Shown piece by piece: positions 4,207 to 37,842 of a DNA stretch of 64,000 nucleotides (position 1 is its first letter; every line of letters begins with the position of its first letter). The DNA is from Mortierella sp. BCC40632. Lineage: Eukaryota; Mortierellomycota; Mortierellomycetes; Mortierellales; Mortierellaceae. The position numbers and the translations under genes were made by a program. The stretch is from the NCBI GenBank assembly GCA_011634665.1, contig WAEK01000010.1, forward strand, positions 802,001 to 866,000, read 5' to 3'. The notes beneath the pieces are model-generated. The model saw only the letters and a program-made list of their open reading frames with translations. It was not told where the DNA came from and did no database searches.

Positions 4207-7200
4207 TGTGTGTGTGTGTTAGTGGAGCAATCTAAGTACATCCATAACGTGGCCCATGGTCGAAGTACTCGGATGTCGTTTTGCCATCATGACATTCTTG
4301 ATCCGCATACCAGGTGCAGAAACACAAACACAACACTGAAGCTGTAGTCGGAAGTTACGACTTGTGGATCCGCATTCAGAATGTTGACAATCTGGTGGAT
4401 ACTTGTGGCGAGAGGGTAGGAGTAAGTGACCAGATCTAGAAGGTTGTAAGGGGATCTATTCCAAAATATGAGAGGGATTGAATATCAGGAAAAATGATTA
4501 CACCTGCACAATGTTGCTTGATACAATCATGAAGCATAGCCACATCATCGGACATACCTGAAATATGGAGACCTGGATCTCTGGGTATCCAACTGGATTC
4601 TTCCTATCATCGATTGTATACTCGAGATCCATTGAGTGACATTTACACGGTAGTAGCCACCACTTTACTTCTTATTTTCTCCCCGTAATGTTCCTCGTCT
4701 TCATATTCTTGTTCCTCTTCATATTCCTCTTCCTCTTTTCGTATGCTCCCTCCATTTACCTTCATTCAAATCTGACTGGGTATAATACCGGCTCTCTCGC
4801 CATTGAAGGAGCTCGAGCCAGAGAAATACACATGAGAGGAAAATGATTGCCGAGAATACTCCAAGGAGAGGACCCTTCTCTTGGTAGTAGACCTGCATCA
4901 GAGCACCACTCAGAATGAGGAGAGTGTAGACACACTGTGATACAAAGCGAATCATCCAGATTGCATACACAAATGTGTTCCTAGAATAAAATAAAGTATC
5001 CACAATGTCAGTACAGCGGGGTATTCACTGAACATCGGGGTACATAGGATAGTAGGATCGTCATGAATACTCACCATTTGTACTGGATCACAGCCTCAAT
5101 GGCAGGATTGTCAAGGATCTCGAGACTGTAGAAGCGAGGTCGGATATACACATGGCTGAAAGGATTCATGTTGAACAGGGTGCTGTGGTAAAGAGCCTGA
5201 ATCCATGTTGTACGCTGATTTGATCCAAATGGGAACTCGTCGCACTGAGATTGGTGTTTTGAGACGAACGACCAGGGAAGATTAACAGGAGCAACAAAAA
5301 TCTCCTCTGTGAAGTTGTCGTTAAGTGGATCATTATTCTCACCAAAAAGGTGCAACTGAAGAATCGGATTCTGGTATTCGTAGATCTTGCGGTTATTCGG
5401 GGTCCAGAACCGATGGAGTGTTGGCGGATGTGCAATCTTGTGGTATTTGATAACGAAATCTCGATCATGGCATCGGATGTACGCAAAGCCTCTGGTGACT
5501 CGGAGTGCTAGATCGGGATGTCTGACGGTGAGTTGATCCACACACTCAAGTAAGTACAGGATAAAAGCTATGTCGTTTAGTGTCTTGGCTTTGTCAAGAC
5601 AGTAGTCGATCAAGATTCTTGCCATCTCTATTGCTGTTGGATCGGTCTTGGCCTTGTGAAGAATGCTCCCGACAGGATTTGACCCGGGTAAGTACGTTCT
5701 CAAAGGAATCCAGACATTGGTGAAGTTAGTGGGGTCATTTTGGAGCAGTCTCCACAAGACCATTTTGAATATGTTGTGAATATCTCTATCCCACTCATTG
5801 CAGACTCCCGATATCAAAGACATTGAGCAATTGGTAGGGAGAGGGAAGTAGTTGACAAAATATCGAAGATATTCGAGCTTTTCGTTCAACACTATATGGC
5901 ACTCGTGCTCGTAATCGATACCCATACGGTGTAACATCCTAACCAGCTTCGTAGCCTCCAGTAGTGTAAACCGATCAGGTTCGAATGATATGCCTCGAAA
6001 TATCCGACTTGAATATGCATCTCTGCTGAAGGTCAGGTTACCTCCGTGGGAGCATGCGCTCAGTTGAGGTACTTGGGTTTCGCCATTCACTTCCCAGCAA
6101 TAGAGTAGTTTGATTTTCTCTGGTGATGACTGTGGGAGTCTCCAGAGTAAGAACTTTAGTAAAAAGCCAATCCTTTTCACCATTATGAGTTGAGACGAGC
6201 CCTCATGGAGATAGCACTTGGATGCCACCCAACAGTACTGACGTGATTCGCCATCAGTAAAATGGATATCCATTGTCAGTCTCCTCCAGTTATGCCCATA
6301 ATCATTCGGAATACCTGTTGCATGGACCACAAATGACCCTCCAGGGTAGTACATCTTCGTATCGTATTCAATCGCAGGAATATCACTGAGGTTTGATTCG
6401 CATTCAGGATTGCACTGAGGCTCAGCTTGAGCGAGTGTTTGTAAATCCTCCAGACAGGTAAACTCAAAATTTGATCCGCTAGTGTGTACCACCATAGCTG
6501 ACTTGATGATGTCAATATCAAGCTTTTCTTTGACATCGAAACTATGTCTTGAGAGTTCCGAATATACCATAGGGAATGTTTCCTTCTTTGACTGAGCTAT
6601 ACCTCCTGGAAAGGCAATAAACCGGTCGGATGGCAATATATTGATATTAAAATCAGGGTTGTCCTTGATTCTTCTGAGGTATTCATTCCATACCTCAGAT
6701 GTTTTATGAAGCCTCTGAAAGAGAACCCCAGATACTGTCGAATACAAGAGCTGAGTCCCCTCCGTGGCAATTATCAAGGTCTTTCCCGTTGATGAAAGGA
6801 AGAGTCCTGTAATCACCCTCGTTGTGTCAATGATGTGTTTTGGCTTTCCAATGACTAGATCCCAGATTGAGACCTGGTAAGGTGACATCTGTAATACAAA
6901 TGTGTCTTCTGCAGCTGCAAATGTGATCCATGTTTTCTGTATCCAATGTCTATCTTGAATTTCGCTTGGAAGCCGCTGAGTGGTGACATGTAAGAGTATC
7001 TCCCATAGGCCCACGACCTTGTAAACACTAAATTCCTGCAGGTCACAAGCTACAAATCTCTCGGATGCATCGCTCCATCGAGGTGTAGAGATATTGGTAA
7101 ACATTGCTTTCCCACTGAACTTCTGCAGCTTGGAGCAGCGAATGTGGCGATTTGAGGGTCGAAGTGGTTGAGGTGTTTGCTGACCCTCAGACTTTTGTTG

Positions 7201-32770: not shown

Positions 32771-32781
32771 GAGAACTCCTA

Positions 32782-32803
32782 TCCCTTAAACCGTAAGGTT
32801 TAA
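32782..32803 (+). repeat. Left terminal inverted repeat of the Fanzor element
   Basis: TCCCTTAAACCGT opens the element after a flanking TA; a perfect 12-bp palindrome (GGCAAATTTGCC) follows at about 32806-32817. Confidence 0.75.
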
Positions 32804-32990
32804 TAGGCAAATTTGCCAGTCAAAAAATGGGAGTGAAAGAGTGAAAGAGAGGGTTAGCATCCACTTTGGTTATGTTTGAGTTGGCCTGGCTTGCTTCTCC
32901 GTGGATTGCTCATGAATTGCTCATGAATTGCTTACCAATACGGGATAATTATTGTCGAGCTCCACACTCGACTTGGGAAGCAGAGCGCTC
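32782..32990 (-). ncRNA. Candidate Fanzor guide-RNA (fRNA) region
   Basis: This is the stretch between the Fanzor stop codon and the nearest element end. In characterised Fanzor and TnpB systems the guide-RNA scaffold is transcribed from this place, the element end 3' of the nuclease gene, with the guide reading into flanking DNA. The position is the only support. The stretch has a short direct repeat (TTGCTCATGAA twice near 32908-32930) and the palindromic TIR block, but I did not fold it. Confidence 0.35.
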
Positions 32991-34818
32991 CTAGTTGGTT
33001 ATCCGGCGCAAGAACCATGGCCATTCCATCTTGGACAACCAGTGGTGTACCGCCATTGCCATGTTGTGAGCCCCATTGACATCACGATCACGGCTTGTAT
33101 CATGCTGGACCCCTCCTCCTGCCTTGCATACAAGGTTTCTTTTCATCTCCTCTGTTTTCAAACCACAGAGGCAGCATCGTTGCGAAGTCTTGAACTCGTC
33201 AACCAGGCAGACTATGATTCCCATCCCTTGTGCCTGTCATCCACAAATAAAACGATTAAATCGTTAGCTACTCTCCTCACTTTGGTCTACACAATTGCTC
33301 ATATTAATATTCATTACCATCTGGCACAGCCTCTCCAACACAACGTATGTCCCACTCGTTCCACCGTTCAATGGTTTGAATACTCCATCCCCAATCGCGA
33401 GGATAACCTGTCGCTTCGATGGTAAACTGGGCTTAGGCAGAGGCTCTTTCATATCTTCTGCAGGTTCGAGATTGGCAATGCTGACTGCTGTCCGCAAAAT
33501 ATGCGAGAGTCGCTGGTCGATCTCTGCAGCATGTTCTTGTTGTTTTCGAAACTTGAGCGTCTTGTACGCCATCGATCCATAGAAAGATCCAAGCGATCTG
33601 TCCGCATTGAGCTTCGACAGGACATGATCTTCCGTGCTCTTGGAGAGCTGTTTCAGTCGAGTCTCCTCAGTAGCCTCACCTCCAGGGTCGCCAATCGTTA
33701 CTGGGACTATCGTTTGCTCTACTGCATTGATCCCGTCTGTCTTCTTGGCGAGTTGCATTAGGTGTCTCATCCCCTGTGTGTGCCAGTTGTATGTCCCTCT
33801 GGAAAGGTGGTGGTTGGAAGCTTGGTTGGGTCGTGCACTGTCAACGATCACTGCTGTGACAAGCTCCGCTATCCCTGGGTCAACCCCAATCACCACGTAG
33901 CTATCGCCAACAAGCTGTAAAACAGTCTCTTTGTTCGCAAAGAGCTCTGTCGCATACCGGATAGTGGTTCGACCTACGTTCAGAGGATGAGCACTCGCGT
34001 TGGCTGCCTCGGCTTTGATCTTGGGCCTTTGAAACTTTTCAGTCTTTGGATCTAGAGGACGGTACGCAAGCAGCCGCAACTGATATCCGTCCGTTACCAT
34101 CGTCCCTCGCAAGCAGTATTTCTGCTGTGGAGAAATCGCTGCTGGCATGCTTTCTTTCTCGATCTGGCAACTTTTGGTTTTCTTCAGAATTGCAATCCTC
34201 TCCTTTGTCATCTCGACAAATTGAGTCTTTAGTTGACCATATCGTCTCTTGGCTTCACTCTCGTCGCCCTGAGCTACTGCCGTCGAGCTTTCTGCTCTTT
34301 TTCGCCCTGGCAATCTCTGGGCTGCCTCCTCGAGCTCCTCTTCCGCCATTGCAAAAGAGTCGAAAAGACTCGGAACTTGAGACGATGAGGGCCTCCCAAC
34401 ACAGGTAGTCTTGTCGTAATTGCTTCTTTGTCTCCCACCGACAAAAAGCCTGTAGTAGATCTCGCCTGGATGATTGGATGCCTTCGAAGATCCCTCTCTC
34501 TGGGAGCTGACTCCTAACAGGTCCTTGATTATTCCTTGTTCCACTTTGTGCTCCAAATCCTGTCGAAAAATAGCGCGGACAAAATACTGTTCAGAAATGG
34601 TGAGAAATGACGTTGACTCTTTTGCAGTAGGAGCTAGTTCTAGTCGGTCCTTGATGGGCAGCTGGAAGTTGAGGACTGTGAAGACCTCGGCCTGGCTGAA
34701 CGCCTCTGATATTCCTTTTTCCTCTACTGCTGCCAGCATGGCTGCTCCCTCTGTCGATTGTGCCCATCCTGGGTTCAGCCGACGCACCTAGAATATTATG
34801 TTGAGTTAACAACTATTT

Positions 34819-34861
<43 letters not shown>

Positions 34862-36059
34862 ATGAACAACTTACTCGTTTGATCAACTCGGGGACAAACT
34901 CGACAAACGTTTTGCACAACATACTGTACAGATTCCGGCCAGAACTCTCAAAAAAACACTGTGGTACTTGTCCTTGTAGGTGCGACTGGAGCCGATCTCG
35001 TTGTTGTTTGAAATTGGGGCCTGCACTCTTTGCAAAGTCGTCTACTACCTCCCTGGCTAGACTCATGCCAACAGTCCCTCGCTTTGTTCTGTCTTCATAG
35101 TATAGCAGCATTAAGAGCTGGCGGCAAAAATCCTCCGTATCTAGGATCTGTAACTTTTTTCTGCCATCCTCTTGACTCCCATTCACAGAGTACATGGCTG
35201 CAACAGTCTTGGCAGCAAACCACCGTACGATGTACAGTCCAATTTTTGTCGCCTCCGAGTGGCATTTGGCGAGTGCTAGCACCGTGTCGGCAATATACTT
35301 GGCAGCTCCACTGCGCTCCTCTTTGGTTTTTGAAGGCAACCTCTCCTCCAAAACTGACGCTACTCGCCACAGAATCAGCTCGCGCTTCTGGGTAATACAG
35401 TCAGAAGTTGAGTCCAATGCTTGGTCAATTAGATTGCCAGGCGATACTCTGTTGGATGATCCTGTTCCCATTACGCTTCCTGTTCCTAGAGCCGTTTGAA
35501 CTGCAAGCCTTGATGCCTTTGCTCTCGCCAGCTTTTTGCATTGTCGTTTCGGTGGAGGATCTGGTGGTGCGTTTGCCTTTTTTGCTTCACTTGCTGATGC
35601 TCCTCTCTTGATACCTTGCCTACATTTGGATCAATCGAAAAAATATCAGTTCTCGCATCCTTTATTTTTTAATTACATCAATCCAACCTGCAAAGTCGCA
35701 TACACCTTGCCTTTTGAGAATCTGCTTGTCAGAGTCGAGTCGTTCGCCCACAGGGCACTCTTGTTGTTGTATTTTCAACCCCTTGGCCTTGTCTTTTGTG
35801 TGCTCGATGTTCCCTTGGGCCGTCTCGCCAGCAACACTTGGGTCGGAAACCTCCTCATCCTCTTCCTCATCGTGAGATCTTGGGAAATTTTCGATTAACC
35901 CCATACCTCGAGGTTGAACAAGCTTCAAACTCGGCTTTGTTTGTCCCTTGACCAGTCGTTTCGTAGATCCAGGTCCACGCCATGTCGGCCCAGCGTCTTC
36001 ATTTCGCTGTTCATCAGCAAGCAAAAATGAAAAGGGCGCTCTAGGCAATGGTTCTAAAC
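32991..36059 (-). CDS. Fanzor: eukaryotic TnpB-like RNA-guided DNA endonuclease
   Basis: Four exons fit in frame: 36059-35688, 35614-34875, 34787-33318 and 33233-32991, with introns of 73-87 nt. The N-terminal part is acidic, then basic. The RuvC-like core begins with VVIGVDPGIAELV, with the RuvC-I Asp at 33879-33881. Region II reads ILAIGDGVFKP. The last exon has VDEFKTSQRCCLCG (zinc-finger half, with the Glu of VDEF at 33195-33197) and RDRDVNGAHNM, the RuvC-III Asp motif. Order and spacing are those of TnpB/Fanzor. The core is uninterrupted, so the nuclease may be active. The first exon lacks an ATG at its left edge; the first in-frame ATG is at 35904, so the 5' end is unresolved. The long intron 34788-34874 contains the poly-T/poly-A tract. 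It lies inside a TIR element next to a FEN1-like gene on the same strand. Confidence 0.85.
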
Positions 36060-36172
36060 CTAGATGACATTTTTAAAAGAAAAAAAAAATATTTTACAAG
36101 TACCATTAGATATAAATCCCTGCAGCGTCGTAGGACTAAGGAGTCAAGTATCGAAAAAAAAAAAACTCAGTC

Positions 36173-37279
36173 TTACTTCGTGCTTTTAGACTTTTCTTGC
36201 CTAATCTGAAAGTTGAGTCTGGAAAGCTCCTCGGGGAATCTCTTTGCGGCAGCCAAGACTAGGTCCAACAGGCTGCTTGTCTCGGAAGGCGTGGCTGGGA
36301 GCTTGAGAGGCGTCTCTTCCGCGTCGAGAAAGATCTTGGCCGCGGCATCAAATTTATGCGGATCTGCATCGTGGCTAGTCGTGTATCCCGCCAGCAGCGC
36401 ACGTGCAGTCCTTTGGCCTGCTGGTGAGCGGTTCCACAGCTTCACAGGAATATTCTGGTTCTTATTGATACCAAATCCTTTGAGGTTGTTACAGTAATCA
36501 TTCCCTGAGGTAATGGCCATCGTCTGCCATACCCCAAAGTCAGGAACCCCTAGTTTCTCTAGGGCGTGGTCGTCGATTGTATAAAGATAGAATGTAGACC
36601 TGTTGTTGTAGCCTTGCCTGAGTACATGGACGTTAGGGATGAACAGCATGTCACTATCAGTGGTCGCGACATAGATCCGTTGGCTGCTCTCCATTGCTTC
36701 GTGTCTAATACAGTTGTCGGCCTCGCCAGAGCAGACGTGAGCATGACGACCAAGAGCAACAAGGTCTTTGGCAAGCCTGTGCCGTGTGTCCATGCTGATC
36801 TCCATTGCACCTCTCCAGGACACCATCATCCTCTTGAACGCCCGGAGTAGGCGTCGGCGCAAGTTGCGCGCCGAGCGAAGGCCGCCTTCCGGGTACTCTT
36901 GTCCAGGCTGGATTGCCGCATTGAATGCGGACAGTGAGCTGGAGCACTGGTGACGGCTATCCTCCTCTCTCTTGGAGCGATATTTCCGGGCGACGGCCTT
37001 TTCGCTGGTGGGGAGTCCGTCGATGTGAATAATCGCATCCTTTGAAAAAACGATATCCAGCTTCTTATTGAGCGCCTTGGCGACCCAACCTGGTTCTTTG
37101 TCTGGCTTCTTGCCTCTTGAAGACGAGCGTGGTGTGTGGAACCAAAATAGAATGGCAAGGATGTAGTGAAAAAACAAGGAGAAGAGGTCGATATGAACAG
37201 ACGGGAACTCTTTCGGATCTACAGAAGATCGTGGGACGCCTGCGTCCGTAACTTTTTTCCAGGCCTGTTTAACTCCCAT
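36173..37279 (-). CDS. FEN1/XPG-like structure-specific nuclease
   Basis: 368 residues from the ATG at 37279 (MGVKQAWKKV, close to the MGxxxLW start of FEN1/XPG proteins). Acidic residues expected for a two-metal FEN site are present in order: D31 (VHIDLFS), D87 (IIHIDG, followed by an EKA-type basic stretch), E186 and D188 (SGEADNC), D208 and D210 (TTDSDMLF), and D261 (SGNDY, followed by NLKGFGI). Such enzymes cut 5' flaps or branched DNA in repair and replication. An upstream extension in the same frame (to 37462) is Phe/Tyr-rich and unlikely to be translated. The stop TAA overlaps a GTAAGA that looks like a splice donor, so fusion with the downstream Fanzor exon was considered, but the phases do not match. 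Its presence within the TIRs suggests it is an element gene rather than host FEN1. Confidence 0.8.
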   Translation of the reverse strand: MGVKQAWKKVTDAGVPRSSVDPKEFPSVHIDLFSLFFHYILAILFWFHTPRSSSRGKKPDKEPGWVAKALNKKLDIVFSKDAIIHIDGLPTSEKAVARKYRSKREEDSRHQCSSSLSAFNAAIQPGQEYPEGGLRSARNLRRRLLRAFKRMMVSWRGAMEISMDTRHRLAKDLVALGRHAHVCSGEADNCIRHEAMESSQRIYVATTDSDMLFIPNVHVLRQGYNNRSTFYLYTIDDHALEKLGVPDFGVWQTMAITSGNDYCNNLKGFGINKNQNIPVKLWNRSPAGQRTARALLAGYTTSHDADPHKFDAAAKIFLDAEETPLKLPATPSETSSLLDLVLAAAKRFPEELSRLNFQIRQEKSKSTK

Positions 37280-37556
37280 GGTCAGAAGTGAATAAAAGTG
37301 AACTTTCGAATGTGTGAGGAAAAGTGCCAGAGAAGTGGATAGAAAGTCGATTACCCTGTAACGAAAAAAACGAAAAAAGAAAAAAGATAAAAGATAAATA
37401 AAAAGATAAAAAAAAGGACGTCGGGAGCTCGAAGTATCAAAGCCAAATTCCGCCCCATCCACTCTCTTGCACTCTCTTACGCATCAGTGTCTATCCCGTG
37501 CTTTAGCGATTCATCAGATACCTCCATCAAAAAAAGTCGTTTGTCCTCTCTCTTTA

Positions 37557-37814
37557 TTAACGGCGACTCTTCAGCCATAGCAAGCAAAGCGAGCGACGGC
37601 TGTTAGCACGGACCACAGGTGTGATCTCAGATGGATGAGTAGACCCATTGGTTCCATGATGGTGCATTCTACCTAATGCCGGCTCGATTCTGATGGTAGA
37701 TGTCAGCACATAGTTTGATCTGCTAGTTTCTGACCAAAGAGAAGGGGGGTTGTGGTTTAAAAGACTTTCGAGAAAAAGGCTGGAAACCTCCAAAATTTCT
37801 AAGCTAGATGGCAT
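37557..37814 (-). CDS. Small hypothetical ORF at the right end of the Fanzor element
   Basis: 85 codons starting inside the right TIR block (MPSSLEILEV). The stop codon TAA overlaps an AATAAA, a possible polyadenylation signal. No domain is recognised. It could be a first exon of the FEN1-like transcript, a short accessory gene, or chance. Confidence 0.3.
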   Translation of the reverse strand: MPSSLEILEVSSLFLESLLNHNPPSLWSETSRSNYVLTSTIRIEPALGRMHHHGTNGSTHPSEITPVVRANSRRSLCLLWLKSRR

Positions 37815-37840
37815 TTTTGCCTGTCTAACGGTTTAAGGGA
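37811..37840 (-). repeat. Right terminal inverted repeat of the Fanzor element
   Basis: The end ACGGTTTAAGGGA is the exact complement of the left end and is followed by TA (37841-37842). The inner block GGCATTTTTGCC at 37810-37821 corresponds to the left palindrome. Confidence 0.75.
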
Positions 37841-37842
37841 TA

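Follow-up and report, generated by a model that had tools for sequence, protein, structure and literature searches.

RNA-guided cutting has been described for Fanzor proteins, with a guide that adjoins the 3' end of the element (PMC10432273), and the roles of Fanzors in eukaryotes are named in the same report as an open question (Saito et al., PMC10432273). The closest described systems are the Fanzor1 elements, of which Spu-1 of Spizellomyces punctatus is an example (Bao & Jurka 2013, PMC3627910; Saito et al. 2023, PMC10432273). As far as the passages devoted to them go, these elements hold a Fanzor between terminal inverted repeats (TIRs) with TA on both sides and without a transposase of their own, copies without genes occur whose ends are identical or alike, and no transposase was found between the Spu-1 ends (PMC10432273). 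The Mariner transposon PGv-1 is described in the relevant section of the earlier paper as carrying a second nuclease, of the GIY-YIG type, alongside Fanzor1 (PMC3627910). Here we describe L036, an element of 5,063 bp at positions 32780-37842 of a 64,000-nucleotide stretch of Mortierella sp. BCC40632 (contig WAEK01000010.1; C10:802001-866000 in the 62-contig, 49.9-Mb assembly that was searched), which is called the window below. L036 resembles Spu-1 in its Fanzor, its TIRs, its single TA at each end and its lack of a transposase. It differs in that its predicted protein adds an XPG/FEN1-like domain and a linker (~1,300 aa, against the 633 aa given for SPu-1-1p in PMC3627910), and in that piggyBac-type transposase genes with matching ends, interrupted by stops, are present in the genome. 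PGv-1 differs from L036, going by its description, in having separate proteins, a GIY-YIG rather than an XPG nuclease, its own Mariner transposase and a single copy (PMC3627910). As far as our search terms reach, the open-access literature yielded no description of an XPG or FEN1 domain joined to a Fanzor.

The FEN1-like and Fanzor parts of L036 very probably form one spliced gene that encodes a fusion protein. Six exons on the minus strand are joined by predicted splicing into a single open frame of 1,313 aa, with predicted introns of 41-91 nt that begin with GT and end with AG. Exon 1 (36177..37279, ATG at 37279) encodes the XPG/FEN1-like nuclease domain, for which the structural model has a predicted local distance difference test score (pLDDT) of 82. 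A predicted mini-exon of 32 nt with in-frame GT-AG junctions (exon 2, 36104..36135) is followed by a linker exon of 354 nt with a PRGMGLIENFP motif (exon 3, 35706..36059). The Fanzor comprises an N-terminal part supported by frame and selection evidence (exon 4, 34875..35614), a main part with the RuvC-I residue D1046 in GVDPG (exon 5, 33318..34787), and the zinc ribbon and RuvC-III region, which corresponds to PF07282 and holds a shifted glutamate in DEFKTSQRC (exon 6, 32991..33233). L036 belongs to family A (~5 kb), together with L033, L035, L040, L043, L045 and L047, whose mutual identity is 92-98% in long aligned pieces. When the exon model was projected on the six other copies, L040, too, proved to have an unbroken frame (1,314 aa). 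In six of the seven copies the mini-exon and the linker exon are of constant length, L045 being interrupted there, and intron lengths vary. Family D offers a second case, in which the XPG and Fanzor exons join in phase 0 with a small exon between them, whose length is 69 or 81 nt, an in-frame difference of 12 nt between copies. In family B (~7.1 kb; L031, L032, L034, L038, L041 and L046), L041 has no stop between the XPG start and a GT, 1,141 nt further on, whose phase suits the linker exon.

Proteins from other genomes also hold both halves. The closest relatives come from Actinomortierella ambigua (52% identity) and Mortierella, and three Mortierella alpina proteins, P0002 (1,186 aa), P0003 (1,121 aa) and P0005 (1,502 aa), each have an XPG-like N-terminus and a C-terminal PF07282 in one chain. 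These are gene predictions made by others, and they favour a single gene independently of our model. Among the 12 relatives listed, three are full fusions, eight are partial, and P0006 has both parts shortened and no PF07282; they were sorted by eye and with Pfam, P0010 and P0011 by eye only. The whole predicted model of P0003 has a pLDDT of 58, and its fold matches, in the rows listed, fall on the FEN1 domain. In A. ambigua, P0001 is annotated, as judged by eye, as an XPG domain with a linker-like stretch and without a Fanzor. Its C-terminus has a knuckle-like stretch, CSTCKEPGHDKRYH, after the linker, which L036 does not have.

The association is not confined to family A. An XPG-like locus lies upstream on the same strand, at no more than 6 kb, for 40 of the 66 Fanzor loci in the genome, where ~0.2 would be expected under random placement; these pairs use 40 of the 48 XPG-like loci, leaving eight unpaired, and four neighbour pairs are arranged the wrong way round. 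For this count, matches at most 2.5 kb apart were treated as one locus; the family B copies on C1 and C7 thereby include a Fanzor fragment that lies next to them. The searches were made exon by exon, and the locus counts are lower bounds. From one Fanzor protein search 40 of 66 rows were taken, the other 26 being further pieces of loci already entered, and from one XPG search 19 of 43 rows, the other 24 matching the Fanzor part; the second Fanzor search and the two further XPG searches entered the count with every row. The co-occurrence of the two parts that the initial annotation had suggested is found at these 40 loci and not in L036 alone; the annotation had taken them for two packaged genes, and here the joint travel is supported and the separateness is not, an in-frame spliced fusion being more likely in view of two family A loci, family D and the M. 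alpina annotations. The XPG-Fanzor pairs span families down to ~30% identity with at least two kinds of ends. Family D is 32-34% identical to family A in the best-matched stretches and has TACAGT ends with TIRs of ~48 bp (85%), which give it a Tc1/mariner look; a genome search for a helper with these ends returned eight matches, all from its own four copies, and no other element. Family E (L060 and L061) has an XPG part 29-30% identical to P0003, and its borders were not found. The pair is kept in families D and E, and the module has therefore outlasted changes of vehicle.

Both halves are, judging by substitution patterns, kept as protein under equal purifying selection. Between families A and B the ratio of nonsynonymous to synonymous substitution rates (dN/dS; NG86, five pairs) is 0.15-0.16 in the XPG exon, 0.15-0.16 in the Fanzor exons and 0.33-0.37 in the mini-exon with linker, at dS values of 1.1-1.6 that are near saturation. 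Within families the ratio scatters from 0.14 to more than 2, with few changes. As a separate observation, dS between L036 and L040, L033, L035 and L047 is ~0.10 in the XPG exon against ~0.03 for the Fanzor exons, a difference suggestive of mosaic copies or gene conversion.

The borders of L036 agree with the initial annotation, which had proposed a unit of about 5.06 kb with inverted ends, a second palindromic block and flanking TA. The TIR at the 3' end of the gene, TATCCCTTAAACCGT (32780..32794, plus strand), and that at its 5' end, ACGGTTTAAGGGATA (37828..37842, minus strand), are 15 bp long with the TA counted in, so that the borders fall at 32780 and 37842. A palindromic block of the GGCAAA..TTTGCC type lies internal to each TIR: GGCAAATTTGCC (32806..32817), which is kept in families A and B, and GGCATTTTTGCC (37810..37821), of which a similar block occurs in the piggyBac-type element L055. 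Just after the 3'-end TIR the letters AAGGTTTAA form an AAACC-GTAA-GGTTT hairpin. The FEN1-like and Fanzor parts share the minus strand, as had been noted, and the lack of a recognisable transposase was also confirmed: none was seen inside the element, and no DDE_Tnp_1_7 match was obtained among the five frames scanned with Pfam. An element with its own transposase was therefore rejected.

The 15-mer TIR is found at 40 sites in the genome with at most one mismatch (30 exact), against two for a reversed-pattern control, and this frequency is far from chance. Twelve TIR pairs, L036 and eleven others, account for 24 of the sites; eight single sites were fetched, one on C8 led to L055, and the seven remaining (C32, C1:3471800, C2, C4, C19:113348 and two on C22) are known as matches only. 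Family B (97-99% mutual identity) is 66-72% identical to family A across the gene parts, and family C (L048-L050) is 82-90% identical to B in most pieces. The XPG-like part and the Fanzor part were found, by alignment or protein search, in all 16 copies of families A, B and C; both ends were seen in L033, L035 and L040, and one end each in L043, L045, L046, L047 and L048-L050. The expectation that both genes would always lie within these TIRs was not upheld, since two miniature inverted-repeat transposable elements (MITEs) of 88 bp, L037 and L039, have TIR ends as in L036 and no genes, and two piggyBac-type elements have the TIR without the two parts. These copies indicate that the TIR belongs to a piggyBac-type family, which the fusion gene rides. 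An empty site with a single TA, a further expectation of the initial annotation, was not found for the L036 insertion in the genome search; only three diverged relatives of the L037 site (~74% identity) are without the 88 bp; in one of them (L057) the joint shows a single TA and, next to it, two additional letters, whereas the other two (L058 and L059) have diverged at that place.

The first piggyBac-type element, L042 (2,059 bp), has the TIR of L036 with one mismatch per end and encodes a DDE_Tnp_1_7 transposase in two frames with one stop between them (E 4.4e-37 and 1.3e-18) and a zinc-finger tail below the cut-off. The second, L055 (C8, ~2.15 kb), has two mismatches in its left TIR, one of them in the TA, and one in its right TIR; its DDE_Tnp_1_7 frame of 553 aa (E 4.4e-48) has one in-frame stop just upstream. 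Four further, weaker transposase relatives were listed, on C6, C7 (two) and C1. At the 5' end of the gene, L036 matches the 5' end of L055 at 31/36 positions and that of L042 at 27/36, and L040 matches L055 at 33/36; at the 3' end L036 matches L055 at 27/36 and L042 at 25/36, and its own two ends agree at only 19/36. This asymmetric matching is an argument for a backbone of piggyBac type in which the fusion gene takes the place of the transposase. A piggyBac-type transposase is, or was, probably supplied in trans as a helper.

The first half of the protein is, by predicted fold and active-site acids, a member of the FEN1/XPG (Rad2) superfamily. Structure comparison of its model gives the FEN1/EXO1/Rad2 fold, and the DNA nucleases EXO1, FEN1 and Rad2 rank best both by fold and by profile, with 13-19% identity to FEN1/EXO1/Rad2-XPG in the structure-match rows. 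Seven active-site acids are kept (D31, D87, E186, D188, D208, D210 and D261). All except D31, which was assigned by motif, stand in columns invariant in 8/8 sequences and align with the FEN1 motifs DG, EAE, DMD and SDY; an H2TH-like NDYxxNxKGxG stretch is also present. Pfam XPG_N and XPG_I gave no match to the L036 copy even at E 1, XPG_I_2 lay below the cut-off in family D, P0003, P0005 and P0012, and XPG_I exceeded it only in P0013, a relative of 263 aa. The FEN1-like nuclease first noticed from the sequence is accordingly recovered by predicted fold despite the missing Pfam match, and differs from known FEN1/EXO1/Rad2-XPG proteins in being fused to a Fanzor and transposon-borne. Academ elements may be a further case of an XPG-family nuclease in a DNA transposon, with a different transposase and no Fanzor. 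Viral relatives of the XPG half were also sought, and none of 76 pattern-matching stretches in viral contigs was confirmed.

In the Fanzor half, the TNB domain PF07282 is matched at 32991-33236 (E 9.9e-9, 35.7 bits against a cut-off of 26.3). Fanzors have been described by the pattern D-X(125,275)-[TS][TS]-xx-[C4 zinc finger]-X(5,50)-RD, in the section that defines it (PMC3627910), and by a rearranged glutamate near the zinc finger, in the part of a later paper that treats it (PMC10711439). L036 has TS 203 residues past the aspartate, the RD, and three of the four zinc cysteines. Its RuvC-I motif is GVDPG, with D1046 in the spliced model; P0002, P0003 and P0005 also have the DPG motif, and family E has GIDLG in its place. 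The shifted glutamate stands six residues before the first zinc-finger cysteine, in EFKTSQRC in L036 and EYFTSAKC in the three M. alpina proteins; the RuvC DPG and the shifted glutamate are further points of likeness with Fanzor1, as that family is characterised in the portion concerned (PMC10711439). The fourth zinc cysteine is missing in L036 and in the four other family A copies readable there, and all four were seen by eye in families B and D and the M. alpina proteins. The Fanzor, at first taken as apparently complete, thus has a complete frame but a zinc finger short of one cysteine. Among the PDB sequences listed for profile A5 at E<=10 there was no Fanzor.

Directly after the stop codon lies a perfect GTCGAG-TGTGGAG-CTCGAC hairpin (32954..32972, minus strand), kept between families A and B, which is a candidate part of a guide-RNA scaffold. 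In the 3' region, A and B agree at 49/68 aligned positions in the first 80 nt and at 36/67 in the next stretch; introns 3-5 agree at 43/91, 32/66 and 36/68, two short introns at 16/27 and 27/40, and the 40-nt element end at 36/40. The terminal AAACC...GGTTT hairpin has counterparts in L042 and L055, and is therefore a transposon-end feature and no proof of a guide RNA. A GTAAG donor-like stretch after the stop codon (32930-32945, minus strand) is also kept between A and B, and a 3' untranslated region intron or a regulatory role is possible for it.

On balance we lean towards L036 being a non-autonomous piggyBac-type element whose transposase gene has been replaced by a spliced XPG-Fanzor fusion gene, taken together with the following mechanism. 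The element, its common ends, the open fused frame, the annotated fusions, the linkage, the selection, the predicted fold with its acids and the Fanzor signature are the parts of this explanation that can be read from sequences. A piggyBac-type transposase would act in trans on the ends, or would have done so in the past. An RNA that derives from the gene's 3' end, with the flanking DNA as its guide, would lead the Fanzor half to the empty target site, which arises by excision or lies on the other chromosome, and the Fanzor half would cut there. The N-terminal half, nearest to EXO1/FEN1/Rad2, would process this break by resecting or trimming its 5' ends or flaps, and homologous recombination with the element-bearing chromatid would be favoured, so that the element is restored or copied (cut-and-resect homing). 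FEN1 and EXO1 activities are established knowledge, and the proposed role rests on these together with known Fanzor biochemistry; we put this mechanism forward tentatively, as possible and somewhat doubtful. A natural single-chain RNA-guided cut-and-resect enzyme, in which the Fanzor makes a programmed break and the EXO1/FEN1-like nuclease covalently joined to it prepares the ends for repair that copies the element, kept as a module through a large Mortierellomycota radiation with at least two types of ends, is a conceivable wider reading to which we give slightly less than even credence. If correct, the recurrent Fanzor-FEN1/EXO1 fusion suggests that the job of Fanzors lies in the processing of ends and the choice of repair, which is directly testable, and it would offer a natural model for programmable nucleases that bring their own end resection. 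The ends, transposase relatives, MITEs and fusion gene are united in one genome for joint study.

Several observations weigh against this explanation. Frames are broken in 5/7 family A copies and 4/4 family D copies (at least one break each), 5/6 family B copies have stops in the XPG stretch with no B copy open throughout, and the family A model depends on the 32-nt mini-exon. The fused frame is a prediction, so two proteins could be made. That two separate genes, a FEN1-like nuclease and a Fanzor, are co-expressed unfused in the same helper roles is nevertheless unlikely: with the first intron retained, the XPG exon would run into an in-frame stop at 36173-36175, and P0001 is annotated without a Fanzor, but splicing is in frame across the joint in two family A loci, the exons of family D are in phase 0, the two halves share a chain in three M. 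alpina annotations, and the linker is under selection. No XPG was found for 26/66 Fanzor loci. The broken frames of many copies might suggest decayed debris, in which a captured host FEN1 exon has come to lie next to a Fanzor by chance. We consider this very improbable given 40 linked loci against ~0.2 expected, two loci with the whole frame open and equal purifying selection on both halves.

Other points concern mobility and function. TA is the only sequence common to the listed insertions, and piggyBac usually inserts at TTAA; the ends of families A, B and C match two genomic piggyBac-type elements. No longer motif beside the TA was seen by eye at the 5' flank as a candidate target-adjacent motif (TAM). 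Each of the candidate helpers, L042 and L055, has one in-frame stop. Were the XPG half only an aid to the transposase that trims flaps at the joints of excision or integration, and the Fanzor half a passenger or regulator, the match of family A and B ends to piggyBac-type ends would be accounted for; the pair is kept, however, in family D with its TACAGT ends and in family E, so that it followed no single transposase, and the Fanzor half is under equal constraint, which makes this role improbable. The conserved acids fit nuclease activity without proving it, and the fold of the 3' region did not differ significantly from shuffles (z -1.3), which leaves the guide RNA putative. The same result, with the best ranking of the DNA nucleases EXO1, FEN1 and Rad2 in fold and profile, leaves little likelihood that the XPG half trims RNA ends instead, as a 5' exonuclease that matures the guide RNA of the Fanzor out of the messenger's 3' end.

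Some copies have features of their own. The family B copies L031 and L034 (C1:558958 and C7:2774957) have both flanks in common and a Fanzor fragment of another family 300-400 bp away, and because of this they represent a segmental duplication or a nested insertion; no uninterrupted copy of their neighbour was found. L038 and L041 share the XPG-side flank and differ in the Fanzor-side flank; the other flank of L041 is a repeat, with matches that end at the TIR, and recombination between copies could have produced this pattern. L044 has a lone TIR at 4743, with ~500 bp 70% similar to the Fanzor-side end of family B and no other listed match; it may be a remnant or a derivative without genes. 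Within the additional 2 kb found in family B, a 306-aa frame (L041 6301-7218, minus strand) separates the fusion gene from the 5' end; its C-terminus is hydrophobic, it is broken in L032 and it has no Pfam or PDB relative. The genome as a whole is very rich in Fanzor TNB domains, with 57 places, of which 42 exceed the Pfam cut-off and 4 more do so with neighbours, and many of these belong to families beyond those studied here.

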